64,000 bases of DNA from Funneliformis mosseae (lineage: Eukaryota > Glomeromycota > Glomeromycetes > Glomerales > Glomeraceae), in assembly GCA_910592005.1 (NCBI GenBank), contig CAJVPP010000017.1, positions 1 to 64,000 on the forward strand, given 5' to 3'. Numbering within the stretch: the stretch's first letter is position 1; each line of letters begins with the position of its first letter. The position numbers were made by a program, and so were the translations under genes. This document shows positions 14,716-57,970 of this stretch, piece after piece. The notes beneath the pieces are model-generated. The model saw only the letters and a program-made list of their open reading frames with translations, searched no databases and was not told the origin of the DNA.

Positions 14716-17700
14716 ATGCATGTTCAAGGTTCTACCAAAACTCCTGAAAACAGCTATGGTATGGCAAAGGTGTCAGAGGGTTTAAAGGTTTAGCTTGCTT
14801 TTAAGTAGACACCCACAAATTGTGCAACCACGTGATCGCGAAGGTTTCCAAGCGGTTTTAAAAGCTAATCCTAGTGTGATGATGTAACGAGTCCATATCA
14901 AACCGAAAAGGAAGCGCTAGTAATTATGTGAAAATGAAAATTAGCAAAAGAACCGTGAATTATACATATATTGATTAATTTCACACATTTTTATGAAGGA
15001 CTGATAGGATGGTATTCATGATAATTCATTATGGGCTTTTTAAATTTTTTCCATTTTCTCTTTTTTTCTTTTTTTTAAGATTTGGAAATGGAGGATACGG
15101 ATATGAATGACTCTGCCGTTCTTGTCAGTCCTCCTCATACAAGTACTGCCTCAAGTTCTCTACTAACGCAAGATGAAAACGAATTGGATACACGTGATGA
15201 CGTTCCAATGGAACTTGACTACAATGATAATAATTCCGTTACCGATGATAATGATTGCATTGGTGATGACTCCGATGATGAAGCTTCTTCCAACGAATAT
15301 CAAGATGAACCTTCGTTCCATGAATCTGAATACCGAGATGAAGCCTCTTCCAATGAATCTGAAAGTCGAGAGCCATATGATTCTCAAACAAATTATGGTA
15401 AAGACTTGGCTGAATACATTCCCGGGTTATATCGTCTGTTAGACTTATGTAAAGATGATGGTACGAATGGATTTGGTAAGTTTCCCTTACATTTTTCTGT
15501 AAAATGTAAAACGTGTCCTTATTTAATTTCACATTTCTTTTTTGTAGATAAAATAACTATCTCGAGGGATTATTTAGAGAAACTATGCAACAATTATGTT
15601 CCATCAAGTTTCAAAACTATTTCTGAAATTGATTTTACGAAATTAAATTCAATCTCGATTCACCTTATTGGATGTTATGGAAATCACGCTTTAATTGCGG
15701 GGCTCCTAAAGAAAAAAGGAATTATCGATCAACAAATGTGTGTAATTGGATCAAAATATTTTCTTCAATGCTCGTTATCTTAATCGTTTTTAAACTGCCT
15801 TTTTTATTTTAGACATGACGCGCTCGTTGCATCGAATTCTTCAGACAATACAAATAAATCGTCTTTACGTCCTGGTATTTACTTGCTGGTTGTAAGTTCA
15901 GACTTGGGTTTGGTAATCCATTGGCCGGAAGTAGGATGTTACGAGGAAAATGCTTCCTCGCAATGTAAAAAGAATGCGACTAACCTTCATAGGTATTAAT
16001 TCAAATTGCATAGAAGCCTAATCATAACTTATTTCATTTTTAATTGAATTGATTCTCATTTATTAAATGTTCTAGATATTTGACAAAACTTACTGACCAT
16101 CAGCTTTGTCTTATGGACGGTAAAGATTTGGAAAGTTTTGATTGGAACTTGGACAGTTCTGATAAATCCGATAGGGATTCCGACGATGAGAATGGATCAC
16201 ATTATAAATTTGAGGTGAAATTAATTCAAGAAGAACAGGAAAACTTTAAACTTCAACCCGGCTTCAAGGTTTCGATTCTAAACCAAATTTTTTGATGCTT
16301 TCACAAATGTAAAAGATATTTTTACACTAAATTTAAAAATTGTCAATTATTAATTAAGTTGGATTTACCAAGCAAAGTAAAGAACGAAATAGATAATCAC
16401 GTTCATGATGATATTCCTTTGTATCCTATTGGTAATAATTTAAATAATTATTTTTTTTCTTTTTTTTCAAAAGGGAGGATGTCTCTAAACTTTATGATTT
16501 TAAATAATTGCTCATTCAATCTTTTTTCTATTTATTCTTGGATCTAGTCGTCGAATCTTCTACGTGTCGTTCGTTTGCTACTCGTCAATTAGCCTTTCGA
16601 TTATGTACATCCACCCCAACTATTCCTCAAATTGACTTTGCTCGTGAACTACAGAAGAAGTTACGGAATCGAACTTTACGTTTCGATCGCGAAAAAATGA
16701 ACATGAAATCATTAGAGATTTTGATCAAGCATGGATTAAGTATGGAAGATGAACTTCTAAGTCAATTACGTAATGCCATTGCAGTTGCAAAGTTGCGATT
16801 TGAAAAAAAGAAGGATCAAGAAAGGAATGCCATAAAAAAGGATACTGAATTGATTTCGAATTGGGCATGGGAAAAATTACGCTCCTGTTATAGGTATTTA
16901 TCATTTTCTTTCTTTAAAAATCATATTAATGATGTTAACCGGTTCTTGTTTCATAGTCTATTTGAAGAGATGATTGACTCCTCTTCGCAAGCAATTATAA
17001 GTGACTATGGTTAAGTATAATTTTTAAATTTTTGAAATCCTCAGGCATTTATAACTTTATTTATTGATAAATGATTTCAATTTTAGATTTAGAACGAATC
17101 CGTTCGAATTATCCAAAGATTGATGAACAAATTGATGAAAAGATCGATATCAATTCCAAATCTTGGATTAGACTGAAAAGAAGATACTATTTGAACATGA
17201 TAACTATTGTTGAAGTATATAAATTGATTAAGAGTTCTGGATCGTGCAATGAAGCAATTACAGAATCCGCGATTCAACTTTTTTATACTATATTCACGGA
17301 TGGAGAAAATGATGCGCATAAGTTAATAAGTAAATACGACGAGAAACTAACTTCGCTCGCTTACAAGTTGCCAACCATTTTTGCCGGTATCTCTTTCACA
17401 CCTGAAAACATTAATCGCATTGTTGCAGATTCGATTAAGAGGGCCCAAGATACGACAGATATCAGATTCATACAAGAATTTATGAATTTAGAATTCTTTG
17501 ATGAATTTAGTGGGATCAAAAATAAAGTCGTGGTTGCCTTCTTTGAAGAATACCAAAAATGGAGAAAATCCGTTTTTCCGAGTAACATTAAAGATATTCT
17601 GCCAAAATCTTCCATCAATAAACAAGTGTTGGAAAAGTTAAATTACGAATACGAAAAGGAAGTACGAGAAATAGAAGCTCGTGAATTTCAACGAATTTGC

Positions 17701-20700
17701 GATGTATTAGAAGAAAAATATAGAAATGGGTATGTCTTTATTAATCATTGTTCGAAATGAAATCGTTTATAACTAATTCCTTTTTTTTTTAAAAAAAAAA
17801 TTCTAGATTTATGAAATTGAATATCATAAACGTTACAGGTGATAAATTAACCTGAATTTTTTTTAATTTTGTGAAAACTCACTTGGCTTTATATTAACAG
17901 TCCATTGTTTTTTTTTTTACATTTATCACTAGAATCTGAGAGTGGATTTCGATTCCATCATGAAATTGAAGAAATTCTGACGGAACAGCTACATGTAACA
18001 ATTTATGAAACTTCTTTAGACCAATCAGATATGCATCGACTTCAGGAAGATGAATTTCATGTTCCAGATATATCTTTGAAGCGTGGTCAAGAAGCTGCAT
18101 CATTTCACCTTGATCCACGAGTTTACGACATTAGGTAGGAGAAACAATGATTTGCGTTCTTTTTTATTATCTAGGAAAAGCAACTAATTTCATTTTATTG
18201 GTTACAGGAATATATCTCAATTTGAAAATCGTAAATTTCTTCTCGTGCTTTACAATAAAAAATCGCAAAAAATTGAAATTTTCCTCGACACTGCCGAGCG
18301 GTTGGCACAAAACTTTAAATCAAAGAGTTCATTTAAACCAATTAAAACGTTGAGTGTGGAAGATAAATTTCTTATTGCAATTAATGATTCAAAGAAATTA
18401 ATTGCAATTTATCATACAAAAAAAGCTGAGGTATGTATAAATCATCTTTTGGGTATTAAAATCCATAAATTAATTATATATATTTTTTTTTTCAAATAGT
18501 TGGATGTATTTAATTTTATTGAGGGGCAAGCCATGTATCCACGAAATCCGAAAATCCAGTTAAAGCATTGGTATAATAATAATGCTCCGACCATTCAACA
18601 CTTCTTATTCATCAACAGTACCGAAGAACTTTGCTTTGTTGAAAGAAGCGGACGTGCACGCATATTCAATCTTATCAATCAACAATTTCGACCAACAACT
18701 TGTGACCTTCCATCTGATGCCGCAAAAATTTTAAGTTCTCCCGATGGTTCATGTATCGTAGCATTCGTAAGAGAAAATTCAGGACCTAAGACACCTTACT
18801 TTGATGATAATACTGATAGTGAATATACCGATAGCGAAGATGATGGCACGGTTGCGCTTACCAACAAATCTAAAGAAATATGTCGTGCTTATGTTTATTT
18901 TTGTTCGACTTTCGGATACTCCAACTATAAAGGTAATTAAAAAATTTTCATATCCTCTTTAGCTTATATAAGTTACATATTAAAAAAAAAAAATCTCTCT
19001 CGTTTGAATAGTTATTAACTTACCGCCTACCCTTCAATCCTTGGAGTTCCTACAATTTAGTTGTATAAATAAACTACAAACCCACTTGATGTCACTTGAT
19101 TTAAAAAATGGACGTTTCAGTTCATCAATAGTTAAAATTACGCTCGAAAAAACTCAATATCGTTTTCAGAAGCAAAAACAGACACTCGGATCTGCGAGGT
19201 TAATTGATTCTAATAACGATTATGCTCATATTGAAGGAAGGAATACTCATTTTCAATCCGATCAAAAAGTTCAAAAAGGAGAATATATTGTGTTAATGGG
19301 TGAAAGGTTCAAGGTGATCGATGTTATTTCGGATACCATGTTAAGAGTTACCGGCAATTTTAAACCTACGAGCAAATTTAATAGTTGGACTGAATTCCGT
19401 ATTGAACCGAAAACAAAACTAAACGGTCTCATCGATGCCTATAAACTGATGTTTGAGAAATATCCAGTTGAAAGTTATGTTGATCCCGAGCAAGATCGTT
19501 TTATCAATTTGAAAATCGTTCTCGATATTGATGATGATGAAGTCGAACATTATTGCGAGAAATTTGAGAGTTACATTACTGAAACTTTTGAAGGTTTGAA
19601 ACGTACTACAAAAAAACCTACCTCAATATTAAAGAGATTTTCCACATCTGTCGTAACTTTCCAAGAGCTTCATATTGAGCATTTGACGAGATATTCATCA
19701 AATTACAAATTAGGAGAATGGATCATTCAACTTTGTTGTTTAATTCCTATACAAATTGCGATAGCAAGAAATAATTTATTTCAACCTCTTAGGGATGGAT
19801 TGGCTTCAAATGATATGGAACATGATGATGGTTCTGGTCATCATGTGGATAGCATAGCAAAGAATATTTCTTTTGGATGGTATGAAGGAATATTTAAGTA
19901 TTTTGGTGATAAAAAAGTAAAAGTTGTTTCTAGTATGGGTGAACAATCGTGCGGAAAATCCTTCATGTTAAATCATCTAGTTGGAACTACCTTCGACGGC
20001 TCCGCAATGGTAATTATTAATCTCTCCCCCTTCCTTTTTTTTTTTTTTTTTAAAAAAAAAAAAAGCTAATTTATAAATTTTCATTTCAGCGTTGCGTTGA
20101 TGGAGTATGGATGTCATTAGGTAAACTAATGATTTTATATTGCATTATATTAAGTTATGATTAATTAATTAAACTTACAATCTCTTTAAACAGTTAACAC
20201 CAAGGACTATATTTATGTTACACTTAATTTTGAAGGGTTAAAGTTTCTCGAAAAAAGTTCACAAGAAGGTAAAATTACAAAACTTATTATTTTTCATTTC
20301 AAACTATTCATTATATTAATATATACAATAAATCTTTTAGATATGTTTTTAACACTTTTCAATACGGTGATATCAAATCTTATACTCTTTAAGGTGATTA
20401 ATTTGATATTATCTTACTACCACTTTCTTTACATATTTACTAATGAATGGAAATTATTATTTTCAAAAACAGAATAAATTTACCGTAAATAAGGATATGT
20501 CTTCAATCTTTCAAAGATTTCAAGATGGCGCAATGTTATTTGATCCAGATCCAAAAATATTTCAGGTACAATTCAAATATTATTTATATATATAATCCAA
20601 ATGTGACGGAGAAAGTCGAATTTATTTAATGTTTTAATTATTTAGGCAAGGCTTTGTATCATCATAAAAGACGTGCCTAAGGCCGACAAAGAAGACATTG

Positions 20701-23700
20701 TTAGGGAATTTCAGTCAAAAATTTCTCAATTGGTTTCTGAGGTACATTTTATTATATTATTTTCAAAGGGTTTTTGTTACGGCTTTATTTATTTAAAATT
20801 TTTTTTTTTAGGGGGGTAAAGATAACTTTATTTCAAGGATGTACAAAGGAGGACTGGATATCATTCCTTGGCCAATGTTTAATGACGCTGGATGGTTTAA
20901 AACCTTATCTAATGTTAATAAAGATTTAGAGAAACAGAAGGCAAAATATGAAAATGCGCGAACCTTCTTACAAAATACAAAGTTGATCATGGCTAAATTG
21001 AAGGTTCGTAAGGTTATCCCGTTCTTAATAAAAAGAATCTCATACTTATATTTGTAACTTTTTAGATATGTGATTGGGGTTCGTTAGATGAAAGCCTCAT
21101 ACAAATTCGCGTCGCAACATTAAAAGGATTACTATCAGTCGCTGTTTCTTATGGTTTAGAACAAAAATCTCCTGATTTCGAACCTCTCAAAGTAAATTTT
21201 ATTTTTGTAATTTACGTCTTTAAATAAGTTTGTAAGCTAGAGAGATATTTAATTTTATAATTTTTACTTCTTTATTTCTAGAACCACGATACCGGAGAGC
21301 CAATTGAAGACCAAATAGACAAATTTTCCACGATTTTATTTGACTTCAATGGAACTGATGATGAAATATTAGCAGATACTGATATTCAATTATATGAAGA
21401 CAGCTCATCTTTTGTCGAACTTTCTGAAGATTTAAGAGAGTACTTCGGAACTTACGTCCAACCACGAGAAGTATCTTCCGATGACACGAAATGGTTCCAA
21501 AATTTAAATAATTTCTTTAGATATGTCGTTGAGCGTCGCGTTGATCGTGTCACTGATTGGTATAGGCAAAATACTACCAATTTTCCACAAGATAACAGTG
21601 ATATTGTTAACGGAAGGTTTGCAATGGAGCAGGAATTAAACAACCTTATGCGTTTGTGGACATTGTGCGGATTGACATGCTATCAATGTGGCTTAAAATG
21701 TGTTAAAAATCGTGAACACGAAGATGAACATGATTGTTTGACAGATCATAAGTGTCATTTCAATTGCCAGTTTACTGAACAACATAACCTTAGATTAATT
21801 CCGTCATGTAATTACAAAGCTGGACATGAAGGCATGCACGTTTGTAGTAAAATAAGAAATCATTTATGTGGTCAAAAATGTAGTCTTCACAATAAGCGTA
21901 ATTGCTTAAAAGTTTGCGCAAAAAAAATTGGACATCACGATGAACATATATGTCAATCGACACGTCATTTTTGTGAGGAAAATTGTTCATTGTCAACAAA
22001 AACTCACAAAGGAGTAGTTTATAAGTGTCCTAACAAATGTATTGTTCCATGTGAAGATCAACACGAAACGCATCGTTGTGAAGATGTAACGTGTCCGATT
22101 CAGTGTCCTTTTCCAAATTGCAAGAAAAAATGCCAAAGCAGTGATCATTTCCATTCAAATTCTAAATCACGAGTGGATCACTTTTGTGGGTATGTGCATC
22201 ATTTTATTTTTATTTTTATTTTATTTTTATTTCATTGGAAACGATTTAAATTTTTTTGATTTTAGGGATGAACATCAATGTCGTGAGTTATGCGAAGAAT
22301 CTGGTATATGTAAGGTAGTAATTGCCAAGCAAGGAGTTAATAAAGAATCTGAAAAAGAATCATTTACGAAGGTATAAATTAATATGTAAAAAGTTAGATT
22401 ATTTTTTAATAAAGAGATATTAATATTTGAATGATGTTTTATTAACAAAATAGTATGTTCAATCAAGTGAAAGATTAAAATGCATTAAAAAAATTCCTCA
22501 AAATGAATTTAAGCACCCCGGAAAACACTCTCATGAAGAAGATGGTTTTCATTTTTGTGACGCAAAGTGTCAATTCTGCGAATGTTTTGTACGTGTTATA
22601 CAATAATTTCTTTTGCTTGTGAATTCTTATTATAACGTAAAATGTTTTATAATTAGTGTACATTGCCTCATGGGCACACGCAACTTCATGATACCAAACA
22701 TGGAAATATGATACCAAACCAATTCAGTGATGACGAAGAATATGCAGGGTATATTATATTTAATCTTATTATTAATATCAATAGATATATCTTTATTTAT
22801 TTATTTTTTTTTTTTTTGGCTAAAACATCTTTCAATCGTTAGATACAAATCAATTAATCAAGGAAAATTCGTCCCTTGCAACTTGGTATGTATATATATA
22901 TTTTTGATTAAATGATGTATATTTTTTTTTTTTCAAATATCTTTTAATTTTTTGTTCAATTTTTTTCAATCTTAGTATTGTAAAGATTTAGGAAGACATC
23001 GACATGTTGATTATTGTCAAGACGAAAAGGCTTGTAAATCAGGACAAGATATTCAGCATATTGATAATAATGGTATTTTAAATTTGTATTCAAGTTCTCT
23101 TCAGTACCATCGACTCTATTTTAATTATTTAATAAATTATAGAAAAACCTATTAATGATAAACCGCTAGATTTCATTTCTCATAGGTTGTTCTGGGAACG
23201 TACAGGTTTTAAAGGTATGTATTAATTCTTTATTTCTTTTATTTAATGTACATATTTTTGAATTTTTTTTTTTTTATTCCAGATCCTTATTCTGTTCAGG
23301 AACAACAAGAGTTTGCAAAATGTGATCACGAATGTTCCGATGAAAAACATTCTCAAGGGTCTACAAACGCTCAAATTAAGTCATTTTGTGAATTACCACT
23401 TTTCCATGCTCCATTCGATCCAAGCTCAAACCCTCCAAATAACTATGGACATATATCTTCAGATGGGCATTATTATAATTGTGAAAATCCAGATACACGA
23501 GAAGCTGCCGCTTTTCATATTGTTTTTGTCTTGGATCGATCGGAATCAATGAGTTATAATGATATGAAGCCTTCACCGTGGACTTCTATTTTTAAGGAAA
23601 TGAAAGCAAATCATAACAACAGACTCGGTGCAGCTTACAATGCGGTAAGATTTAAAATTAAAGAATTTAATGATTTTTACAAACTATTCTTATTCTTTTT

Positions 23701-24422
23701 AATGTATAATTTAGGTATACCAATTTATGGAAACACGTCTTACTTCCACTCAAGAAAACCAGAATCAATCGTCACCCACTTTGCGTGATAGCATTTCATT
23801 AATCCTGTTTGATCATAATGTTATCGTACCATTTGAGAATCGAAATTTAACAGAATCGGGAGCTTTATTGAAAACAATGCTTCAATATAAAACTGGTGGT
23901 GGAAAGAATTTCGATCTCGCAATTAAGAAAGCTGGGGATTTAATCTATTCGTATTTTGATCCTACAAAGTAGGTTTCTTACTTTTGTAAAGTTAAAATTT
24001 GAAATGTCCGTTTAATGTTTGCTTATGAATTTTTCGTCCCCCCTTTTAGGACAAATGTCATTATTCTCTTATCTGATGGAGAATGTGGTATTCCAACAAC
24101 TCAACTTAAAAATATTTGTAAGACGAATCAAACAAAAGGGTAATTATCATCAAATCTTTTTTAAATTTTGTTGCCTTAAACTAATTATTAAATTTAATAT
24201 TTTTGGAATTCTTTTAGTTCCCCATTATATCTCTATACAGTATCAATTAACAACGATTCACAAAGTCAACCATTAGAAGAGATGGCAAGGATTGCACAAT
24301 CTTATCATCCTCCAAATACTTCATCCGGTGCTTTACGATGTCAATTTATCCGTGCCACTAATGAACCAAATTTAGTTAATCATTTTAGCAGTGTGGCGGA
24401 AAGTTTAAAGAAACACACATAA
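14716..24422 (+). CDS. Giant GTPase / Cys-His array / vWA protein, copy A
   Basis: Paralogue of the genes at 32291-42335 and 43049-53202, following their exon order. The first exon, 14716-14758 (MHVQGS...), aligns with the first exons of the others and joins 15080 in phase after a 321-bp intron. The stop is at 24420-24422. No frame break was found in the exons checked. The predicted protein is about 2.35-2.4 kaa, shorter than B because the variable N-terminus is shorter and acidic (15080-15400). Module order: GKDLAEYIPG module (15403 on); RPGIYLLVV segment (15870); charged helices (16540-17730); propeller-like segment with SSPDGSCIVAF (18200-18930); GTPase P-loop GEQSCGKS (19942-19965); G3 region NFEG (20228); IIIKDVP (about 20660); Cys/His array (21650-23080); vWA (23490-24420) with DRSES and LLSDGE. 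Two key residues differ: G3 DFEG is NFEG, and the MIDAS Thr of GGGTNFD is Lys. GTP hydrolysis and metal binding may be impaired. Confidence 0.85.
15277..15372 (+). repeat. Short acidic peptide repeats in gene A N-terminus
   Basis: Three imperfect units start with GATGAAGC/CCTTC-type sequence and encode DEASSNEYQ, DEPSFHESEYR and DEASSNESESR. Units are 27-33 bases, all multiples of three. This is a fast-evolving, disordered, acidic tract that B and C lack. Confidence 0.7.
17781..17800. repeat. T10A10 palindromic tract in an intron of gene A
   Basis: Ten T followed by exactly ten A, just before an exon of gene A. Similar poly(T)-poly(A) junctions lie at 1728-1750, 14228-14251, 20035-20064, 24499-24516, 34299-34317, 35686-35708 and 40495-40520. 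Confidence 0.9.
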
Positions 24423-38200: not shown

Positions 38201-41200
38201 GTAGTTTCCAATCTTATACTTTTTAAGGTGATATGTGATGAATTTATTACTTTATTCATTTCATAATTTTTTTTTTTATTTTCTCATTCAAATTATATTT
38301 AATTTCAAACAGAATCAATTTGCAGTAAATAGAGATATGTCTTCGATGTTTCAAAGGTTTCAAGATGGTGCGATGTTATTTGAGTCAGATCCAAAAATAT
38401 TCCAGGTAAAAGTTAATATATAATCTTAATAAAGAATAACATAAAAAATTTTTTTATTAATATGTTTATAATTTAGGCGAAACTATGTGTCATCATAAAA
38501 GATGTGCCTAGAGCCGACAAAGAAGACATTGTAAAAGAATTTAAATCAAAATTTTCTCAATTAGTTGCCGATGTACAGTATATATTTATTATTATATGTT
38601 TTCAAGGATTTTTGTTGCGGCTTTATTTATTTATTTTTTTTTAAATAATTTTAGGAGGGCGAAGATAACTTCATTTCAAGAATGTACAAAGGAGGGCTTG
38701 ATATTATTCCTTGGCCAATGTTTAATGATGCCTCATGGTTCAAGACATTATCAAAGGTTAATAAGAATTTAAATAACCAGGAACCTAGATATGAAAATGC
38801 ACGAAATTTCTTACAAAATACAAAAGTAATTATGGCTAAATTAAAGGTCTGTAGAATTATATATATATTAATTATTATATTTATGATTGATTAAAAAAGT
38901 GACTTGAATTTTATAACATTAGATATGCGATTGGGGTTCATTAGACGAAAATCTCACTCAGATTCGTGTTGCAACATTAAAAAGATTACTCCCAACTGTG
39001 ATTTCATTTGGTTTGGAACAAAAAGATTCTACTACTGAACAACTTATGGTAATAATGGTTTTTACTTATATTGATATAACATAAGCTTCGACAAGTTTAA
39101 CGAATTTTTTAACGTTGTTTTTAAATTTACTTTTTCTATATACTTCAAAAGAATCGTGATACTGGGGAACCGATTGATGACGCAGTAGTCAATTTTTCTG
39201 AGATTTTACACGAGTTCGAAGAATCTAATATAACATTGTCAGATTCTGATATCCAATTATATGATGAAAACGCATCTTTTGTCCGACTTTCTGAAGATTT
39301 AAGAACTTACTTCGAAGAAAATATACAATCGCGTAAAAACTCATCCGATGATCTCAAATGGTTCGGAAACTTCACTAGATTCTTTAAATATATTATCGAG
39401 CGTCGTGTTTCACGTGTTAAAAATTGGTATATGCAAAATACTGCCAAGTTTCCGCAAGATAACAGTGATATTCTTAACGGGAAGTATGCAATGGAGCAAG
39501 AGATAAGCAAGCTTACACTGCTATGGACATTTTGTGGATTAACATGTTATCAATGTAATTTAAAATGTGTCAAAAATCGTGATCACGAAGAAAGTCATAA
39601 TTGCTTAACAGATCATAAATGTCATTTTGATTGTCATTTCACTGAAGCCCATAATAGTAAATTAATTCCAATGTGTAGTCATAAGGCTGGACATGAAGGA
39701 AAACACGCTTGTGATAAAATAAATCATTTGTGTGGTAAACCTTGTAACCTTATCGATAAACGTAATTGTCAGAAAGTTTGTTCAAGGGAAATTGGACATG
39801 AGGAGGAACATCTATGTCAATCAACACTTCACTTTTGTGGAGAAGCTTGTTCATTATCAACAAAAACTCAGAAAGGAGATTATAGTTGTCCTAATAAATG
39901 TATTAGACCATATGAAGAAGAACACGATTTACATCGTTGCGAAAATCCAACTTGTCCAATGCAGTGTCCAATTCCACGTTGCCAGCGGAAATGCCAAGTT
40001 AATGATCATTTTCACTCATTTTCTGATTTACCAGTAGATCATTTTTGTGGGTAAGTACTATATAAAACCATCACTTATTTTTTCGTTAATTGGGAATTGG
40101 ATTTGATCAAATTAATTATTATTTTAAGAGATGAACATCAATGTCGTGAATTATGTGAAGAAGATGGTATATGTAGAATAATACTCGAACCGAAAAAGCA
40201 AGAAGAAGTTTATAAAGGATTAGTAACCAATATTGCATTTACGAAGGTATGTTAATGTCATTTGAAGTTATTTTGATGTGGTTAAAATTAATTTTAATAA
40301 TCTATAAATGTTTATTTTTCATTAAAAAATAGTATATTCAATTAAATGAAAGATTAGCATGTATCAAAAAAATTCCGCCAAATAAATTTAAACATAATGG
40401 AAAACATACACATGAAGAAAGTGGCTTTCATTTTTGTGATGCCAAATGCCAATTCTGTGAATATTTCGTATGTATTATAAAAATCTGCGTATCATTTTTT
40501 TTTTTTTTTTAAAAAAAAAATATATTAATTAAGTGTTTTATGATTAGTGTACGTTACCTTATGGGCATGCACAAATTCTTCATAATACGACTCATGGAAA
40601 TATGACACAAACTGAGTTCACCGGAGAAGATAATGAGTTTGAATATGCAGGGTATAGTTTATATAAAATCAACATGTCTGTTATATTTTATTATTAAATT
40701 TTTTTTTTTTTTTATTAGTCATAAATTAAAAGTTGGCGATCAAGGAACATTTGTCCTTTGTAACGTGGTTCGTTATTCATAATTTGTAATTTCCACATTT
40801 TTTTTTTTTTTTGTTATTCTGTAGTTTTAAACTTTAAAATTCCTGTTTCCTCAATATCAGCACTGTAAAGATTTAGGAAGACATCGTCATATTGATTATT
40901 GTCAAAACGAAGAAAATTGTAAATCAGGACAAGATATTCAGCATATTAAGGGTAAATTAAACAAATTTATGATTTAACTATATTTAATAGGTTAATTAAT
41001 TGATTTAAATTATAGAACGAGTACATCCTAATCCTGAAATATCCAAAGATTTCATTTCTCATAAATTGTTCTGGGAGAGAACGGGTTTTAGAGGTATATA
41101 TCAAATAATTCCACGTGCTTCTTAAAAATATATTGATGTATTTTTTATACTAGATCCTTATTCCGCTCAAGAACAACAAGATTTTGCAAAATGCGATCAT

Positions 41201-42335
41201 GAATGTCCTGACGAAAAGCATCATAAATCTCAAGGATCTACAAGAGCTCCTCCAACTAAATCATTTTGTGAATTATCCCTTTTCCATGCTCCGCTTAATC
41301 AAGATTCAAATCCTCCAAATGACTATGGATACATTTCTTTAGATGGGCACCATTTTAGTTGTGAAAATCCAAGTACACGTGAAGCCGCTTTTCATATTAT
41401 ATTCGTCATGGATCGTTCAGGATCTATGAGCGGAAGGGATAGAAAACCAATTCCAAACCATCCAATTTATAACGAATTAATAAAAAATCACAACGATAGA
41501 ATAGGCGCGGTTTATCAGGCGGTAAATTAATAAATAATATTAAATTTATTATTGTCAAGTATTCAATTTTAATATATTCAATATATTCAATATTTTTTTT
41601 TTCAATACAGGTATATCAATTTATGGAAACGCGTATTGCTTCCGCTCAAACTAGTCAAAATCATGCTTCATCCGCTTTACGGGATAGCGTTACATTAATT
41701 CTTTTTGATCATAAAGTTGTTGTACCATTTGAGAATCAAAGCATGACAAACACAGTGGAATTGTTAAATATTATGCTTAATTATAAAGCTGGTGGTGGAA
41801 CAAATTTCGATAATGCAATTCAAAAAGCTGGATATTTGATCACCTCTTATTTTGACCCTACGAAGTAAGTTGATACTTATTACATGAGTTAATTATATCT
41901 TATTAGCGAATGTATTCACACAAATTTTTCTTTTCAGAGCAAATATCATCATCTTCTTATCCGATGGAGAATGTGGTGTTCCAACCAAACAACTTCATAA
42001 TATCTGTAAACAAAATCAGTCAAGAGGGTAATTATTATCAAAGTTTATAAATTGTTGCTTTATAATATTGATTTGAATTACAAATTTTTTTTCGTAAAAT
42101 TTTCAGATCGCCAATATATCTATATACAGTATTATTTAGCAGCAGTGCACGAAATCACTCTTTAGAAGAAATGGCAAAGATTGCGCAATCTTATCATCCA
42201 CACAGTTCATCATCTAGTGCTTTGCGTTGTCAATTTACTTGTGCCATTACTGAAGTTAGTTTAGTTAACCATTTTACTGGCGTGGCAGAAAGTTTGAGAA
42301 AACATAAACCAGCGTTGCTAAAGAAGAAACACTAG
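32291..42335 (+). CDS. Giant GTPase / Cys-His array / vWA protein, copy B (intact)
   Basis: Spliced by eye into 32 GT-AG exons in consistent phase: 7,602 bases, 2,533 aa. Exon 1 is 32291-32330 (MHIVNSS...); the stop is at 42333-42335. Modules: Gln/Ser-rich disordered N-terminus (1-270); GKDLAEYIPG module (from about 274); RPGIYLLVV/IHWPE segment (about 375-430); long charged helices (about 500-850); beta-rich propeller-like segment with FLLVLYNKKS and SSPDGSCIVAF (about 930-1165). The GTPase domain has P-loop GEQSCGKS (about 1483), RCTEGVWMS, G3 DFEG (about 1528) and IIKDV (about 1597) as the R/K-D type G4 of GB1/RHD3 proteins. The Cys/His array spans about 1855-2195. The vWA domain has MIDAS DRSGS (about 2306), the Thr of GGGTNFD (about 2405) and the Asp of LSDGE (about 2435). 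No signal peptide or membrane helix is seen, so it is probably cytosolic. By analogy with GBP/VLIG proteins it may assemble on membranes or intruders; that is inference. The annotation of the family in databases could not be checked. Confidence 0.9.
36831..38846 (+). other. GB1/RHD3-like large GTPase domain of gene B
   Basis: Covers the exon at 36831-37846 and the next six. GEQSCGKSFMLNHL fits GxxxxGK[ST] followed by a leucine-rich helix. TTFDGSAMRCTEGVWM corresponds to the switch/guanine-cap region of GBP and RHD3/atlastin-type GTPases, whose consensus has a TxGIWM motif. VALDFEGL matches their DxEG-type G3. LCVIIKDVP supplies the lysine-aspartate in place of NKxD, as RD does in GBPs. SNLILFKNQFAVN corresponds to their SSYLIYN-like helix. 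The order and spacing support a dynamin-superfamily GTPase. This is recognition from motifs, not a search. Confidence 0.75.
39525..40951 (+). other. Cys/His-rich probable zinc-binding array of gene B
   Basis: More than 60 Cys and His residues in about 340 aa. The recurring unit runs roughly C-x(3)-GHEx(2)H-x-C-x(5)-H-x-C-x(3)-C, for example GHEGKHAC, NHLCGKPC, GHEEEHLC and LHFCGEAC. The same ligands are kept in genes A (21650-23080) and C (44580-45980). It faintly recalls NF-X1-type fingers, but the spacing differs and I do not recognise it as a named domain. Multiple bound zinc ions are inferred. Confidence 0.65.
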
Positions 42336-43048: not shown

Positions 43049-46000
43049 TTAAGAACCGTGATTCTTCTTTAACAATGCTGGTTTATGTTTTCTCAAACTT
43101 TCTGCCACTCCTGTAAAATGGTTAACTAATTTTACTTCAGTCATTGCACAAGTAAATTGACAACGCAAAGCGCTTGATAATGAACTTTGTGGATGATAGG
43201 ATCGCGCAATTTTTGCCATTTCTTCTAAAGAGTGACTTTGTGAACGACTGCCAAATAATACTGTATAGAGATATAATGGAGATCTGAAAATTTTCCAAAG
43301 AAAATTTATTCAATAAGATTATTTTTAAGTAAACTCTAATAAAATTTAATAATAAATACCCTCTTGTTAGATTTTGTTTGCAAATAGTATGAAGTTGATT
43401 CGTTGGAATACCACATTCGCCGTCAGATAAGAAGATAATGATATTTGCTCTAAAAAAAAGTTAGAAATATAGCATAACTATTTCGATTTTAACTTGTACA
43501 AAATTCTAACTATACCTTGTAGCATCAAAGTGTGTAGCAATCAAAAATCCTGCTTTTTGAATTGCAAGATCGAAATTCGTTCCGCCTCGAGCTTCGTGTT
43601 TAATCATTTCATTTAGCAACTTTTTCGGATCAGTTAAATCTCGATTCTCAAATGGAACGATAATCTATCATTATTCAATTATTCTTAGTATATTAATGAT
43701 TATAATTAAACTTCAAAATATGATTGTAAAATTAAAAACCTCGTGATCAAATAAGATCAATGATACTTTATCACGCATAGCTTGATTTTGATTTACTGGA
43801 GCAGATTTGATACGTGCATCCATAAATTGATATACCTGTTAAAAGTTAATGATAAAAAATTTTTTATTTAAAAAAGTTAATGCCGTAAAATTTATCTTAA
43901 GCAATAATAATAATTTTAATCTTACTGCATGATATACTGCGCCTGTTCTATTGTTGTGTTTTTTGATTAATTCATTATAAATTGGAAAGTTTGGAATTGG
44001 TTTTTTATCTCTTTCGCTCATAGATGATGAACGATCCAAAACGAATATAATATGAAAAGCGGCTTCACGTGTACTTGGATTTTCACAATAAAAATGATGC
44101 CCATCTAAAGATATGTAGCCATAGTTATTTGGAGGATCTGAACTTGGATTAAGCGGAGCGTGGAAAAGGGATAATTCACAAAATGATTTAGTTGGAGAAG
44201 CGCTTGTAGATCCTGATTTATGATGCTTTTCGTCAGGACATTCATGATCGCATTTTGCAAATTCTTGTTGTTCTTGAGCGGAATAAGGATCTAAAAAAAA
44301 AAAAAAATACATCAATAAATTAATATATACTGAAGAAGCACGTGAAAAATTTTTCATATATACCTTTGAATCCCGTTCTCTCCCAAAACAATTTATGAGA
44401 AATGAAATCTTTTGGTTTATCAGGATTAGGATGTACTCTTTCTATAATAAAATAGTTAATTAATTAATATATAAATATAATTACATCAAAAATGAATTAA
44501 ATTACCATTAAAATGTTGTATATCTTGTCCTTGGTTTAATAATGATTTACAATTTTCTTCATTCTGACAATAATCTATATGACGATGTCTTCCTAAATCT
44601 TTACAGTGCTAATATGGGAGATTAAAAAACACAATGCTTTTAACACTAATGACTTCGATAATAAAATGAGATGCTGTATCAACATACCAGGTTACAAAGA
44701 ACAAATGTTCCTTGGTCACCAACTCTTAGCTTATGTCTAAAAATTAAAAGAAATTTTAATAATAATATTATATTAATAAATATTTCTATATATGTATATG
44801 CATACCCTGCATATTCAAATTCATTATCTTCTCCGGTAAATTCAGTTTGGGTCATGTTTCCGTGTGTTGTAGTATGAATTTGTGCATGTCCATAAGGTAA
44901 TGTACACTAATTATAACACATTAATTCATTAATATATTAAAAAAAAAAAACAGGTAAATACATAAATATGTTTAAATACATACAAAATATTCACAGAATT
45001 GGCACTTTGCATCACAAAAATGAAAACTATCTTCTCCATGTGTATGCATTCCAGTATGTTTAAATTCGTTTGGAGGAATTTTTTTAATACATACTAATCT
45101 TTCATTTAATTGAATATACTATTTTATTAATGAAAAATACATTTATAGATTAGTAAAATTTTTATTTTTCTCACATAACTTCTATAAGAGATCATCATAC
45201 CTTCGTAAATGTAATATTTGTAATTAATCCTTTATAAACTTCTTCTTGCTTCTTAGGTTCAATAATTACTTTACATATGCCATCCTCTTCACATAATTCA
45301 CGACATTTATGTTCATTCCTTAAAAATAATGTGTTTTTAAATCATTAAATTCATTCCAAATAATAAATAAATCAAATAAAATCAAATAACAAAATAGTAT
45401 CATAATACATACCCACAAAAATGATCTACTTGCAAATTAGAGTAAGAGTGAAAATGATCATTATTTTGACATTTATTCTGGCAATCTAATATTGGACACT
45501 GGATTGGACAAGTTTCATTTTCACAGCGATGTGAATCATGTTCTTCTTCATATGGTATAATACATTTATTAGGACAATCATAGTCTCCTTTCTGAGTTTT
45601 GGTTGATAGCGAACAAGCTTCTCCACAATAATGTCGAGTTGATTGACATAAATGTTGCTGTTCTTCATGTCCAATTTCCTTTGAACAAACTTTCTGGCAA
45701 TTACGTTTATCGATAAGGTTACAAGGCTTACCACACAAATGATTTATTTCATCACAAGCGTGTTTTCCTTCATGTCCAGCTTTATGGCTACACGTTGGAA
45801 TTGATTTGTTGTTGTGAGCTTCAGAGAAATGGCATTTCAAATGACATTTATGGTCCGTTAAACAATCATGATTTTCTTCGTGATCACGATTCTTGACGCA
45901 CTTTAAACCACACTGATGACATGTCAATCCACATAATGTCCATAAAAGCGTAAGTTTGCCGATTTCTTGTTCCATTGAATAATTTCCATTAACAATATCA

Positions 46001-49000
46001 CTATTGTCTTGTGAAAACTTGGAAGTATTTTGCATATACCAATCTTGAACGCGTGAAACACGGCGTTCAATAATATATTTAAAGAACCTATTGAAGTTGG
46101 CGAACCATGTGAGATCGTCAATTCGTGATTGTACATGATCTTCAAAGTAATTTCTTAAATATTCAGAAAGTCGGACAAAGGATTCGTTTTCATCGTATAA
46201 TTGGAGATCAGAATCCGGTAATATTGTCTTAGAAGATTCGAAATCATGTAAAATCTCAGATAAGCTGACTACCGAGTCAGCAATTGGTTTACCTATATCA
46301 CGATTCTATTGAAATGTATGAAATAAAATCATTAATGATTCGTCAAACTATATAAGCCAGAATATAAATAAATAAATTTCTTTTATGATACCATAAGTGG
46401 TTCATTAGCGGAAGAATCTTTTTGTTCCAAACCATAGGAAATCACAGTTGGGAGTAATCTTTTTAAAGTTGCAACACGAATCTGTATGAGGTTTACATCC
46501 AACGAACCCCAATCACATATCTAATGCAAATCGATTACTTATTTAATTGAAAATAATTTAGATAGATAGATAGACGAGATAAACAGGTGTACAAACCTTC
46601 AATTTAGTCATAATTACTTTTGTATTTTGTAGAAAAGTTCGTGCATTCTCATATTTTGCTTCCTGCTTGTCTAACTTCTTATTAACAATAGATAATGTCT
46701 TAAACCATGCAGCATCGTTAAACATTGGCCAGGGAATAATATCTAATCCTCCCTTGTACATTCTCGAAATAAAGTTATCTTCTCCTTCCTAAAAATAATA
46801 AAATTAATACCTTAACAGATAAATATTTAAAAGTGACGGTAAAAATACTACCGCTGAAACTAATTGAGAAAATTTTGACTTAAATTCTCTAACAATATCT
46901 TCTTTGTCAGCCTTAGACACGTCTTTTATGATAATACAAAGTTTTGCCTAAATAACAAAATATATTAATAAACAAATTTTATTATACTATAAGTAAAAGT
47001 TGTGAAATTGACTCATGCCTGAAAAATTTTTGGATCTGATTCAAATAACATTGCACCATCTTGAAATTTTTGAAACATCAAAGACATATCTCTGTTTACT
47101 GCAAATTGGTTCTGTTTTAATTAAGAACATTTTGCAATAGTAAATAGATGAGAAATGAAATAAAGATAACAAGATAAATAAAATTTACCTTAAAGAGTAT
47201 GAGACTTGATACGACTGTATTAAAAAGTGTTAAAAACAAATCTAATGTATATATTTATTAATTAGTATACAGCTATCTAAACTGAGAAATATAATTATAT
47301 ATATAATTGTAAATTTACCTTCTTGAGAACTTCTTTCAAGAGAATTTAAACCTTCAAAATCGAGTGCGACATAAATAAATTTCTTGGTATTTACTATAAG
47401 AAAATAGGAAAAAAGGCATTAGAGAAAGCCAATTTAATTTTTATGGTACCAAGAATATTAAAAAGTTTATTTACCAAGCGACATCCATACACCCTCGGTG
47501 CAACGCTGAAATGAATATTAATTTAATAATTTATTTTACAAAGATAATTAGGTAAAGATGTTAAAGAATTAATATTTACCATTGCGGAGCCGTCAAAGGT
47601 AGTTCCAACAAGATGATTCAACATGAATGATTTTCCGCAAGACTGTTCACCCATACTAGAAACAACTTTCACTTTTTTATCGCCAAAATGCCTGAAAATT
47701 CCTTCATACCATCCAAAAGAAATGTTTTTTGCTATGCTTTCGACATGATGACTATAGCCATCATCAAATTTCAAAATCATTTGAAGATAATCCATCCTTG
47801 AGAGGTTGAAATACATTATCTTTTGCTACAGCGATTTGTATAGGAATTAAACAACAAAGTTGAATGATCCATTCTCCCAATTCATATTCCGATGAATACT
47901 TTTGAATACTTTCAATATTAAGTTCTTGGAAAGGAATAATTGATGTAGAGAATTTTTTTAGCATTGTTGTGGGCTTTTTTGTAGATCGTTTTAAATCTTC
48001 AAAGGTTTCAGAAATGTAATCCTTAAATTTCTCGCCATATTTTTCGATTTCTTCATCGACAACTTCAATATCAAGAACGATTTTTAAACTAAGAGGACGA
48101 TTTTGTTCAGGATCGATACAGCTTTCAACTGGATACTTCTCAAACATTAATTTATAGGCATCAATAAGTCCATTTAATTTTGTCTTCGGTTCAATACGAA
48201 ATTCCATCCAATTATCAAATCCATCTATAGGTTTGATATTATAAATTTTTAATTTTGTGTTAGAAACAACTTCAGTCACACTAAATTTCTCTCCCATTAC
48301 TACAATAAATTCTCCATTTTGAACAATTTTTTCAAACTCTGTATTTTTTCCTTCAATAATGGTATAATTAACATTTCTGTGAGAAGAATTCATTAATTTT
48401 ACAAGCCCAAGTGACTTTTTTTGCATTCGTTCTTGGAAACGATATTGAGTTTTTTCAAGGGTGATTTTAACTATTACGGAATGGAAATATCCATTTTTTA
48501 AATCAAGCGATATCAAATGAGTTTGTAGATTATTTATACATGTAAATTGCAAGAATTCCAAAGATTGAAAATTTGTCGGTAAATCAATAACTAAAAAAAA
48601 AAAAATTTTTTTTAAAGCATTAAATCTTATATAAGTAAAAAAGACATAATAGATCGTTAGTTACCTTTAACAGGACCCCCAAAATTTGAACAAAAATAAA
48701 CATAAGCACGGTATATTTCTTTGCTTTCGTTTTTAATACAATTATTTTGCTCTTCTTTGTTATCAGCTGAAATAACCGGATCATTATCACTTTTGTCCAT
48801 ATCATCAGTAATATGTTCATTTTCGTTGCCATCTTCGCTTCCCGCGGGGTTATCAGCTGAAATAACCGAAATATTATTATTTTTTTCCATATAATCAGTA
48901 ATATGTTCATTTTCGTTGTCATCTTCACTTCTTGTGGTTTTATCAATGGGGTTAACCTCTACTAAATTTTCTTTAACGAATGCTACAATACATGAGCCAT

Positions 49001-52000
49001 CAGGTGAGCTTAAAACATTTGCGGTATTGGTTGGAAGATTACAAACTGCTGGTCGAAATTGCAAGTTTATAAGATTAAAAATACGTGTTCGGCCACCTTT
49101 CTCAACAAAGCAAAGTTCCTCGGTATCTTTGATAAAAAAGAAATGATGAAGAATTGGAACCATATTATTATACCATTGTAATAACTGTATATTTGAATTT
49201 CGTGTAAGTAAATTTGCTTGACCATCATGAAAAGAAGATACATTTAACTATTAGAATAAAATAAATATTTTTAGATTTATGGAAATTAAGGAAGTTACAA
49301 ATAATCAAACATTTTCATACATACCGTAGCTTTTTTTGTATTATAGATAGCAATTAATTCTTTTGGCTCATTAATTGCAATAATAAAATGTTCATCCGAA
49401 AAAAGCGTTTTAAATGGCTTAATCATATACGATGCTTTGAAACTTTGTGCTAATCGCTGAGCCGTATCAAAAAATATTTCGATTTTTTCCATCTTTTTAT
49501 TGTAAAGCACAAGGAATTTGCGGTTACCAAATTGAGATATTTTTCTATGATGTAAATTATACATATATGTAAGTCATCGAAAAAAGAAGCGAAGATTTAT
49601 AAAAATATTAATAATTGCCTGAAATCGTAAATTGCAGGATCAATCTGGAAAGTGAAGCCACATTGATATTGTAATGTTAGATTTGGAATGTGAAGCCCAT
49701 TATCTTGAAGTTGAAAGGTATCTGCTTCATCTAATGAAGTTTCGTAAATAGTTATCTGCAACTGATTTGGCTGCGTTGTTTCAATTTCATGTTGGAATCG
49801 TAATCGATTAGGATAATTAGAATCTGACCAAAAAAATATTCACGATGTTAAAAATATTATTATTAATCATTTTAATTAAATTGCGAATAATTGTTCTATC
49901 ACCTGTTACTATATTTAGTATATTCAACTGCATAAGTCTAGAAGATTTTTATTGTTAATATTAACGTATTAATAAATCAATGTTAATAATTAATTAAAAC
50001 TTACCCATTTTGATATTTTTCTTCTATTACATTACAAATTCTTTCAAATTCATGAGTTTCAATTTCTAGTTTCTCTTGCTCAAATTCTTCATTTAACTTT
50101 TCTGTTAATTCAGAAACTTTTGGCAGAATTTCTTTAATGTTATTGGGAAAAGTGATATTTCTCCATTTTTTGTATTCTTCAAAGAAAGCTTCTATGACAT
50201 TTTTTTTGATCTCATCAAATTCTCCAAAAAATGCTGTAATATTAAGGTCTTGTACAAATTGTTTATCTAACATATTTTTGGATATTTTAATCGAATCGTC
50301 GATTGCGCGATTAATTTTTGTAGAATTGAAAGACTTAACGATAAGATCCCAAATAATAGTTGGTAATTTATACCAAGGTTGTTGTTTTTCAGTATACTTT
50401 TTTACTAATTTATGTGCATCAGTTTCTGAATCCTTGAACATATTTTTAAAAATCTCTATTGTAGATTCTGCAATTTCTTCACTGTTTTCTCCAGCCGATT
50501 CTATTATTTTCTTAATTATTATCGTAGTTAAAATGTATCTTCTTTTTAATGGTTGCCAAGCTTTGGAATTGATTTTAATTTTTTCATTAATTTGACTTTC
50601 TATGTCAGGATATTTATCATGAATCCTTTCTAAATCTAAATTAATAAATAAGAAATTGATTAGATAACAATATTAATAAATAATCTCCAAGTATTTTAAA
50701 TTTGTACAATATACTTTACCCTCATCACTTATATTTGTCTGAAAGAAGGAATTTTCGTCAATAAACTCTTCAAAAGAACTATAATAAAATTAATTTATTA
50801 CATTTTTTTTTTTAAAAAATAAAAAAAGGATCAAATAAAATACCTGTAACAATCATATAATCTCTTTTGTGCTAAATTTGTAATGAGTTCAATATCTTTA
50901 CTTGTAGCACTCTTTTCTTGATTTTTCTTTTTTTCACTTTTCAACCTTGCAGCTTCTATTGCTTCATGTAATGGCCCCAAAAGTTTATCTTCCATATCTA
51001 ATCCGTGTTTAATCAAAATCTCTAAAGATTTCATGCTCATTTTTTCACGATTAATTTGTAAACGTCGTCCTTGCAGTATAGTCTGAAGTTCTCGTGAAAA
51101 TTCATTTGTAGAAAGAAATAAAGTGTTTGGGCGTAATTGAAAAGTCGACTTTATTAATTGTCTGGTAACGAACGATTGGTTTTTAGCTGATTCAACAACT
51201 AAATCAATAATGGATTGAATATAAGTTAATAATTCACTTTATAAAATTTAAAAATACAAATTATTACCAATGGGATGTAAAGGTATATCATCTTGAACAT
51301 TATTATTTATTTCAGCTTTTATTTTTTCAGACAAATCCACCTTAAGAATTAAAAATTAAGTTATTTTACATATATATATTACATAAAGTAATTTAATAAA
51401 AACCTTGAAACCGGGATAGATTATGAAGTTTTCCTGTTCTTCCTGGCTTTTCTTAACTTCAAACTCGAAACGAGATTCATCATCTTCATCTTCTGAATCA
51501 ATATCAGAATTGTCTAATTTCCAATCGAAACTTTCCAGGTCTTCATCGCTCATAAGACAAAGCTGATGGTCAGTAAGCTTTGTCAAATATCTATAGGATT
51601 TGATAGAATGATAATTAAATTGATTTTCGATTTAATACAGGCTAAATAAAAAAAATATACCTATGTAGATTAGTCATATTCTTTTTACGTTGCGAAGAAG
51701 CATTTTCCTCATAACATCCAATTTCAGGCCAATGAATAACTAAACCCAAATCTGCATTCACAACGAACAAATAAATACCAGGACGTAAAGAAGGCTTATT
51801 TGTGTTGTTCACAGAAGATTGCGAGGCTATAAGCAAATCACGTCTAAATAAAAAGAGAATATAAGTAATATAAGTTTAATTATGGTTATAGGAATTGAAT
51901 AATTATTTCATGATATAAATTGATATAAATTACATACATTCGTTGATCGATAATATTTTTCTCGAACAAAAGTTTTACGATTAAATTGTGAATTCCGTAA

Positions 52001-53202
52001 CACCCAACAAGTCGAAACGAAATTGAATTCAGTTTCGTATAATTAATTTCAGAAATAGACTTGAAACTTAACGGAACCATATCGTTGCATAGTTTCTTTA
52101 AAGAATCCTTTGAAATAATTATTTTATCCACTAAAGGAATTATAAAATATATCAAGTGTTGAAGATTAATCCTTTAATAAATTATTCAAATACAATTTCA
52201 CAAATAATGTAAGTAAAGAAACATACCAAGTCCATTCGAACCATCATCTTTGTATAAGTCTAACAACCGATACATACCAGGAATATATTCAGCCAAATCT
52301 TTGCCATTTTCAATTGAATCAATCGAATAATATTTGTGATTTTTAAGAACTTTACGAATATTTTTTTTGGGATCAACCTTGTCAAGGTCATTTCCCAAAT
52401 TCGGTTTTTTTCGGAAAGCAATTGTAGAATCATCGGATTGGGATTGAGTAGATTTGCTTTTCTCTCTGTTTTTTTCTTGAGATTCTTTGGACAACGTTTC
52501 AACTTGAGGGTTAGAATCAGTACCATCACTTTGTTGGCCGTGTCGCGAATAATCCCCGGAAAATAAGTTCGTGTTCATAATTTGACTAAAATCACTAGTA
52601 AGTAAATTATCGGAAGGCTCATCATCTTGAGTTTGGACCGAAAGCCTAAAAGTTATTTGTTCTTCCGAACTTTGCATGTTGTCAGCACTAAAGGAGTCCG
52701 TATTCGTGATGATACCTTGCTGAACTAAGTTAATTGGTGGTTGTTCGTTTGCGATGCCATCATTTAATAGTGGCGGAGAAGGAATTTCATTTCCACCTTG
52801 AACAATTGAAGGATCGTTAGGTTGCATCCTGGTTGTCTGCTGCGCAAAAGGAGTCTCTGCCGGCGCCATCGATGGATTGATAAGAATGGTTGAATCATTT
52901 GTTTCCTCTAAAATAATAATAATAATAATAAGGAAAGAAAAGACAAAATTAGTGATTTATATATTATATGCATCAAAATAATTCTTTCCTATCCACAACA
53001 TTGAATTAATAAAATCAATTCAATATATGGATGGATTAACGCTTCTGTGCCAATTATCAATTGTTCTTTGATTAGTTAACAAGTTGTCATGGTAGGCCGC
53101 AGTTTATCATGTTATGGAAAATTTTTAACGCGTTAATATTCCGAAATTGATTAATATCTTACCAAAATTATCGGGAACTTGGGTATTATTATGATTTTTC
53201 AT
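43049..53202 (-). CDS. Giant GTPase / Cys-His array / vWA protein, copy C (frameshifted)
   Basis: Reverse-strand paralogue, closer to B than to A: both end in a RKHKPALLKK tail that A lacks. Exon 1 is 53202-53163 (MKNHNN...), joined in phase 1 to the exon starting near 52907. The stop is at 43051-43049. Modules match B. The P-loop GEQSCGKS is at about 47655-47630, G3 DFEG at about 47355, the Cys/His array at 45980-44580, and a full MIDAS (DRSSS, GGTNFD, LSDGE) at 44035-43425. One extra T at about 47765-47770 (GAAATTTGATGATGG) shifts the frame and gives TGA just before the P-loop, so the gene as written would make a protein of about half length without GTPase, zinc array or vWA. All exons downstream remain open, so the break is recent or a homopolymer error. 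Also private to C are an intron at 43665-43739 and a 90-bp coding duplication at 48760-48939. Confidence 0.85.
43665..43739 (-). other. Extra intron in vWA domain of gene C only
   Basis: Gene C reads LILFDHE, then GTTTTT...GATAG, then IIVPFEN. Genes A (about 23806-23840) and B (about 41695-41730) are continuous at this point (LFDHNVIVPFEN and LFDHKVVVPFEN). The 75-base interruption has GT-AG borders, preserves phase 0 and contains stops. It is either gained in C or lost twice. Confidence 0.75.
46560..46573. repeat. GATA microsatellite in intron of gene C
   Basis: Short run of TAGA units (TTAGATAGATAGATAGAC) in an intron next to the exon ending near 46597. Confidence 0.7.
48760..48939 (-). 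repeat. 90-bp tandem coding duplication in gene C
   Basis: Two 90-bp units (48760-48849 and 48850-48939) both start TATCAGCTGAAATAACCG on the plus strand. On the coding strand each gives a 30-residue acidic unit with SED-NENEHIT-YME/DDMD and VISADN. It lies in the variable acidic loop after the propeller-like segment. A and B have unrelated acidic sequence there. Confidence 0.85.
52908..52931. repeat. TAA trinucleotide microsatellite
   Basis: About seven TAA/ATA units in intron 1 of gene C, just upstream of its acceptor. Confidence 0.8.

Positions 53203-55460: not shown

Positions 55461-57970
<2,510 letters not shown>

Follow-up and report, generated by a model that had tools for sequence, protein, structure and literature searches.

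Introduction

The guanylate-binding proteins (GBPs) of animals, their plant GBPL counterparts, the VLIG/URGCP proteins and the Sey1/RHD3/atlastin group are the described systems closest to the locus presented here, a cluster of three paralogous multi-exon genes (copies A, B, and C) of the arbuscular mycorrhizal (AM) fungus Funneliformis mosseae. The cluster lies within a window of 64,000 nucleotides (positions 1 to 64,000 of contig CAJVPP010000017.1, assembly GCA_910592005.1), and its genes together account for 29,906 of the 38,487 bases of the interval studied. Each joins a large GTPase to a Cys/His-rich array and a C-terminal von Willebrand factor A (vWA) domain. GBPs have been classed, in the part of the source available, as membrane-independent scaffold GTPases (PMC8565484), and the words "fungi" and "fungal" are absent from the main text, as available, of a review of GBP evolution (PMC9005921). 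A Blastocladiella expressed sequence tag listed as "similar to Interferon-induced guanylate-binding protein" indicates that a GBP-like fungal transcript had already been seen in 2006 (PMC1550239).

The proteins of this family share with GBPs and plant GBPLs the order of the P-loop, TxGVW, and DxEG motifs, and copy B matches the GBP family (PF02263) above its cut-off. Unlike in GBPs, the GTPase is embedded in 2,300–2,500 residues, and KD stands in place of the RD motif. The best Pfam GTPase match of copy B is to VLIG/URGCP proteins (URGCP_GTPase, PF25683, E = 2.4e-10), which the family also resembles in its giant size and in a GTPase located far from the N-terminus; yet this match stays below the curated cut-off (40.2 vs. 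55 bits), and no other URGCP-type Pfam family was found in 20 homologs at E ≤ 0.1. We know of no VLIG protein with a Cys/His array and a vWA domain, both of which are present here. Sey1/RHD3/atlastin proteins belong to the same GTPase branch (RHD3, PF05879, E = 3.4e-7; SEY1 by profile), but copy B scores below the RHD3 cut-off (30.4 vs. 42.4 bits) and, by hydropathy only, the family displays no clear membrane hairpin, the maximum over 19 residues being 1.79 and located before the GTPase domain (G domain). With ANTXR2, CLCA1, and Rpn10, to which Foldseek matches the vWA part, the family has in common the DxSxS-T-D residues of the metal ion-dependent adhesion site (MIDAS), but differs in that its vWA domain is joined to a GTPase and a Cys/His array. 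The mouse IRG proteins, in which GKS members are effectors and GMS members regulators and the P-loop itself differs between them, offer a parallel for the coexistence of active and switch-altered paralogs, but they are unrelated in sequence and the family described here keeps its P-loop. GmGIN1 of Glomus mosseae, described as an AIG1/IAN-type GTPase with a Hog domain in the sections available (PMC2362128), likewise fuses a GTPase to another domain in an AM fungus, but belongs to a different family. As the initial annotation had supposed, no description of a family with this GTPase-array-vWA order was found in the literature searched, which was covered in part and judged by title and the start of the abstract.

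We argue that the cluster encodes members of an old family of giant GTPases that would act as GTP-driven, self-assembling scaffolds, with intact and switch-altered paralogs side by side; we assign this reading a probability of about 0.5.

Domain Architecture of the Cluster Proteins

An N-terminal half of about 1,150 residues, the GTPase, the Cys/His array and the vWA domain follow each other in the same order in all three copies, and GEQSCGKS, (D/N)FEG, IIKDV, and the vWA motif DxSxS are found in A, B, and C alike (Table 1). The initial annotation, which had described three paralogs filling about 30 of 38 kb and a copy B of 2,533 residues, proved exact on these points. It was also right about the GTPase class, the array, the vWA domain with MIDAS and the conserved, unnamed upstream sequence; of the motifs it listed, GEQSCGKS, DFEG, and IIKDV are all present in B and C, but copy A reads NFEG.

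Profile matches and motifs place the G domain in the GBP/VLIG/RHD3 branch of the dynamin superfamily. In copy B, GBP reaches 22.7 bits against a cut-off of 21.1 (E = 6.2e-5), and both VWA_2 (38.1 vs. 27) and VWA (27.5 vs. 23.8) also exceed theirs. Across 20 full-length fungal homologs (E ≤ 0.1), Pfam returns VWA_2 for every one, URGCP_GTPase for 18, RHD3 likewise for 18, GBP for 15, and VWA for 14, and the best PDB sequence matches of a profile built from these homologs are GBP1 (4.8e-6), GBP2, and GBP5, with further matches to SEY1 (0.0012) and the vWA domain of CLCA1 (0.0017). NCBIfam and PADLOC gave only vWA or weak matches on four homologs. A query with the GTPase-array-vWA part had 182 matches, of which 120 were listed and are the basis of all homolog counts over 120. 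The P-loop, the switch-I Thr and DxxG occur in order in copies B and C, whereas copy A lacks the Thr and the Asp; the same order is found in 87 of the 120 homologs (by regular expression, partial models included). The Lys of IIKDV, where GBPs have RD, is conserved in 107 homologs (Arg in 2, another residue in 3, unaligned in 8), and a regular expression, run over models that include partial and vWA-less ones, finds a complete MIDAS (DxSxS, Thr, Asp) in 72.

In the array region of homolog P0001, 64 of the 80 Cys/His residues are invariant in all 20 fungal homologs and 70 in at least 18. Their spacing is partly regular (C-x3-C...H-x3-H-x-C-x4-H-x-C-x3-C), which suggests that the array binds zinc; no zinc-finger family, the NF-X1 type being considered, was returned for copy B by Pfam at E ≤ 1, with search filters that drop weak matches. 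The first 1,400 residues of copy B match no Pfam family at E ≤ 1, and structure modeling weakly points to a beta-propeller-like region in the N-terminal half. Helices are predicted ahead of the array in a model of the C-terminal half, in which the recognizable Foldseek matches are vWA proteins; this model is poor, so that the missing GTPase there is uninformative. A signal peptide was not seen by eye at the N-termini, and the proteins are probably intracellular.

The gene models derive from a small codon and splice-site predictor and were mended by comparing A, B, and C with each other. The predictor accepted no donors but GT and GC and no acceptor but AG; GT-AG ends are in part a product of the method, and independent support comes from the sharing of introns in position and phase: 30 of the 31 introns of copy B are common to copy A, and copy C, handled as two pieces, C1 and C2 (1,422 and 1,074 residues), shares 12 of 12 introns with copy B in one piece and 18 of 19 in the other. 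Copy C is interrupted by a one-base frame break. Its F. caledonium ortholog, P0013, is in frame across this site, which leaves two readings, a recent break or an assembly error. Copy C further contains a predicted intron in its vWA domain (about 43665–43766) that is absent from A and B, and two predicted introns in other parts of this copy are GC-AG. Disordered parts vary in length: the acidic linker of copy C carries a tandem duplication of 90 bp (48759–48938), and the acidic N-terminus of copy A has a repeat of 33 nt (15295–15371).

Table 1. Positions of the three genes and their domains in the window.
Feature	Position	Strand	Description
Copy A	14716..24422	+	35 exons, 2,365 aa; altered GTPase switch (CVDGVW, NFEG), MIDAS Thr to Lys
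Copy B	32291..42335	+	32 exons, 2,533 aa; scored G-domain and MIDAS residues all intact
Copy C	43049..53202	-	About 2,500 codons in two frames; one-base frame break; scored GTPase and MIDAS residues intact
Copy C frame break	47768..47781	-	One base, between 47,770 and 47,768 (about 47,769), just upstream of P-loop
Copy B conserved N-half	33232..37549	+	About residues 277-1408; alpha/beta, helical, beta-propeller-like regions
Copy A G domain	19938..21003	+	P-loop 19938-19961, NFEGL 20226-20240, IIKDV 20661-20675; predicted switch-dead
Copy B G domain	37775..38846	+	P-loop 37775-37798, DFEGL 38052-38066, IIKDV 38492-38506
Copy C G domain	46618..47651	-	P-loop 47651-47628, DFEGL 47361-47347, IIKDV 46932-46918
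Copy A Cys/His array	21654..23509	+	
Copy B Cys/His array	39521..41389	+	
Copy C Cys/His array	44058..45945	-	
Copy A vWA domain	23510..24419	+	DRSESM; MIDAS Thr is Lys; SDG present
Copy B vWA domain	41390..42335	+	Full MIDAS, plus C-terminal tail
Copy C vWA domain	43049..44057	-	Full MIDAS; one predicted intron foreign to A and B

Switch-Altered Paralogs

The most unexpected result is a repeated and inherited loss of switch residues beside intact copies. Copy A differs from the consensus at four sites (switch-I Thr to Val, G3 Asp to Asn, SRD Arg to Lys, and MIDAS Thr to Lys) and reads CVDGVW where copies B and C, which match the consensus at all four, read CTEGVW. The same four substitutions are present in P0020, its ortholog in F. 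geosporum. Work on GBPs and Ras implies that losing the switch Thr together with the Asp should impair Mg-dependent switching. Copy A is apparently a maintained catalytic variant, inherited with its switch disabled, as judged from these conserved substitutions, and its recognition as such is new here.

Among the 120 homologs, the G3 residue is Asp in 101, Tyr in 7, and Asn in 5, with 7 unaligned. In a G-domain tree of 87 rows (92 were proposed, and five with fewer than 150 aligned residues were left out), the 12 rows without Asp, plus copy A and the own-genome sequence L037, fall in four or five places. Copy A with P0020 and P0073 with L037 are joined weakly (97/71), eight Rhizophagus/Glomus rows form a clade (97/84), and P0049 and P0012 each stand alone. 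The backbone linking the first two groups with the Rhizophagus/Glomus clade is not resolved; these may therefore share one loss, which together with P0049 and P0012 makes at least three. P0012 is the F. geosporum ortholog of copy C and has Tyr at G3, which means that the intact state of copy C is not retained in every species.

Each of the eight Rhizophagus/Glomus clade members stops at P0001 position 2233–2291, before the vWA domain, and one of them, P0043, is without the P-loop Lys as well. Some of the vWA-less ends may be gene-model truncations; a short common tail of such members recurs in R. irregularis and R. clarus. This tail, approximately DNDxHTITxxNLK, is seen in the vWA-less Rhizophagus members P0037, P0041, P0044, P0048, P0049, and P0054, which belong to two separate G-domain clades.

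Copies, Orthology, and Selection

The F. mosseae genome searched (82 Mb in 4,154 contigs) holds at least 13 loci of the family, three in the cluster and ten on other contigs. Two of the latter span 2,222 and 2,112 residues of copy B (contigs C1277 and C1405), a third spans part of residues 277–2233 (1,867 residues; C1006), and the other seven, over the stretches examined, are incomplete or degenerate. The plain GBP family, when used to search this genome, matched five times but nowhere on the contig of the window, probably owing to the spread of the G domain over short exons. The matches L001, L002, L003, and L004 (contigs C635, C2022, C646, and C3) score 86–111 bits, far above copy B.

In a 53-row tree, made by a quick method with Shimodaira-Hasegawa-like approximate likelihood ratio (SH-aLRT) support only, copy A pairs with F. 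geosporum 15834, copy B groups with F. caledonium 8031, F. geosporum 13694 and a metagenome protein, and copy C with F. caledonium 8032 and F. geosporum 15836, each with support of at least 99. Over the tree columns, copy B and the second piece of copy C are 99 and 98% identical to F. caledonium proteins, and the best match of copy A among those listed is P0020 (91% over 1,053 columns). The three lineages are thus older than the split of these Funneliformis species, and recent tandem birth, as proposed in the initial annotation, was rejected, since F. geosporum has an ortholog of each of the three copies and F. caledonium one of B and one of C. Birth and divergence as such does fit, but over the age of the genus, and with a separate expansion elsewhere: eight Rhizophagus rows form a group of their own (support 99), so that duplication went on separately in Rhizophagus. 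On these trees the family is one that has been amplified separately in at least two genera of AM fungi. Copies B and C are sisters with support of 99 in the 53-row tree, but this is not resolved in the G-domain tree.

Synonymous divergence (dS) between B and C ranges from 0.47 to 0.66 in six of the eight segments and exceeds 1 in the other two; between A and B it does so in four of eight. The ratio of nonsynonymous to synonymous divergence (dN/dS) ranges from 0.08 to 0.52 and lies below 1 in every segment tested, with the G domain among the most constrained (0.12 for B-A, 0.08 for B-C) and dN highest in the N-terminus and the helical region. Identity between A and B is 0.16 in the disordered N-terminus and 0.44 in the helical region vs. 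0.81 in the G domain. Positive selection was sought by segment and not found; the ratios are rough where dS exceeds 1, and site-level signals could be hidden. Around the P-loop (37656–37857 and 47569–47770), DNA identity between B and C rises to 94%, compared with 81–92% in the other listed B-C pairs, and gene conversion between them is possible there.

Distribution Across Eukaryotes

The domain order, which the initial annotation found unusual, is not peculiar to these fungi. Full or partial members occur, among the matches listed, in Glomeromycota, Endogone, Jimgerdemannia, Basidiobolus, Phlyctochytrium, and Basidiomycota, including Schizophyllum commune (P0098). Most full-length fungal members comprise 2,100–2,600 residues and are collinear, more weakly so in the N-terminal half, in the chytrid, Basidiobolus, Endogone, and Basidiomycota as well; a stretch of about 50 residues (1251–1300 of copy B) is absent from all seven basidiomycetes compared. 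Two basidiomycete members, P0102 and P0116, are labeled "E3 ubiquitin-protein ligase TRIP12" in public databases, and Pfam lists only GTPase and vWA types for them. A query with the Cys/His-vWA part had 56 matches, among which the named ones were all fungal apart from one Symbiodinium protein. Used as a query in turn, the latter gave 24 matches, itself included, in Durusdinium, Cryptomeria, Taxus, Ceratopteris, Adiantum, Phytophthora ramorum, Reticulomyxa, and Rotaria, among others. The fungal profile is collinear with the longer of these proteins, N-terminal stretches included (in P0179, profile positions 108–366, 849–955, and 1139–2355). Ferns, conifers, and dinoflagellates carry most of the architecture; the oomycete (Phytophthora), foraminiferan (Reticulomyxa) and rotifer (Rotaria) proteins match only in part. 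The family is old and widespread among eukaryotes, and its patchy distribution could have come about by horizontal transfer or by repeated loss along many lineages. Neither prokaryote nor viral contigs gave a relative in scans that used two short conserved peptides each, and an origin from prokaryotes or viruses was rejected on these scans.

Neighboring Features of the Window

Upstream of the cluster lie 30–31 nt tandem repeats (8.7 and 3.6 copies; 361–779), beside a kinase-like reading frame recognized by eye (about 2659–3521), and a cytochrome P450 gene (11137–13123; PF00067, 1.4e-89). The neighbors on the other side are a BTB-BACK-TLDc gene (54120–55451, reverse strand) and a 6-phosphofructo-2-kinase/phosphatase gene (55773–57970).

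Proposed Mechanism and Alternative Readings

The classing of GBPs as scaffold GTPases (PMC8565484) makes GTP-driven assembly with target binding by flanking domains our best guess. GTP binding would lead to dimerization of the G domains and polymerization into a scaffold on a target, be it own, foreign or microbial, held by the propeller and vWA domains, the latter via a metal ion, and GTP hydrolysis would take the scaffold apart. Copy B, and copy C if expressed in frame, would be competent members, as they retain the scored catalytic residues. Copy A keeps the P-loop, but neither the switch-I Thr nor the G3 Asp nor the MIDAS Thr; it is thus predicted to bind nucleotide without normal switching and, where assemblies are mixed, to serve as a decoy or a regulator.

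Several points weigh against this reading. The mechanism draws on domain analogy, and the URGCP and RHD3 scores of copy B fall short of the curated cut-offs. The model of the N-terminal half is weak (predicted local distance difference test, pLDDT, 60; predicted template modeling score, pTM, 0.33) and that of the C-terminal half poor (mean pLDDT 39, from an alignment of five rows), so that the G-domain fold is not supported by structure. Copy C may be a pseudogene. With five Asn and seven Tyr among 113 scored residues, G3 is moreover not absolute, and the loss of its Asp may matter less than assumed. It seems very improbable to us that decay, and not maintenance as a variant, accounts for copy A and for those Rhizophagus/Glomus members in which G3 is Tyr or Asn: several own-genome relatives are partial or stop-ridden and P0043 is also without its P-loop Lys, but the frame of copy A is open over 35 exons with introns matching those of copy B, and it shares its substitutions with P0020 at 91% identity.

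The other alternatives concern function. A housekeeping giant scaffold for membrane traffic, organelle contact or protein quality control, with no recognition of intruders, would explain why the proteins are collinear in ferns, conifers, dinoflagellates, and fungi with many different lifestyles, and why purifying selection on the G domain is strong; the number of copies in AM fungi would then reflect large coenocytic cells or loose control of gene number. We consider this rather unlikely, since the distribution is patchy, with no Ascomycota among the matches listed for either query (no separate Ascomycota search was made), and amplification with altered-switch paralogs is unusual for such a GTPase. 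Cell-autonomous recognition, in which the propeller, the helical region or the vWA domain would bind microbial, viral or non-self hyphal ligands and a GTP-driven coat would contain them, as in coating by animal GBPs, with A-type paralogs as sensors or inhibitors, strikes us as rather unlikely. The GBP-class GTPase speaks for it, as do the many members and side-by-side copies in AM fungi with separate expansion in Funneliformis and Rhizophagus, the presence of switch-altered paralogs and a divergence that is fastest in the disordered N-terminus and the helical region; yet dN/dS does not exceed 0.52 in any segment, orthologs are retained between Funneliformis species, and most Basidiomycota species names occur once among the matches listed.

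Conclusion

An immune or self-recognition role, the idea put forward in the initial annotation, stands as a possible alternative to the scaffold reading favored here. In a bolder and more doubtful form, the family would be an overlooked GTPase-zinc-vWA class of AM fungi, mushrooms, conifers, and dinoflagellates, serving in AM fungi for cell-autonomous recognition: catalytically intact members would build a coat, and maintained members that are switch-dead, MIDAS-altered or vWA-less, some of them adjacent, would tune its threshold, an arrangement comparable to paired sensor/helper or GKS/GMS immune GTPases.

Altogether, a conserved architecture that spans fungi, ferns, conifers, and protists appears to be without a described function. 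If these proteins act like GBPs, cell-autonomous GTPase scaffolding would go back further and reach more widely than the record from animals and plants indicates, and the intact and altered paralogs found side by side in AM fungi, together with the homolog of Schizophyllum commune, make the family testable.

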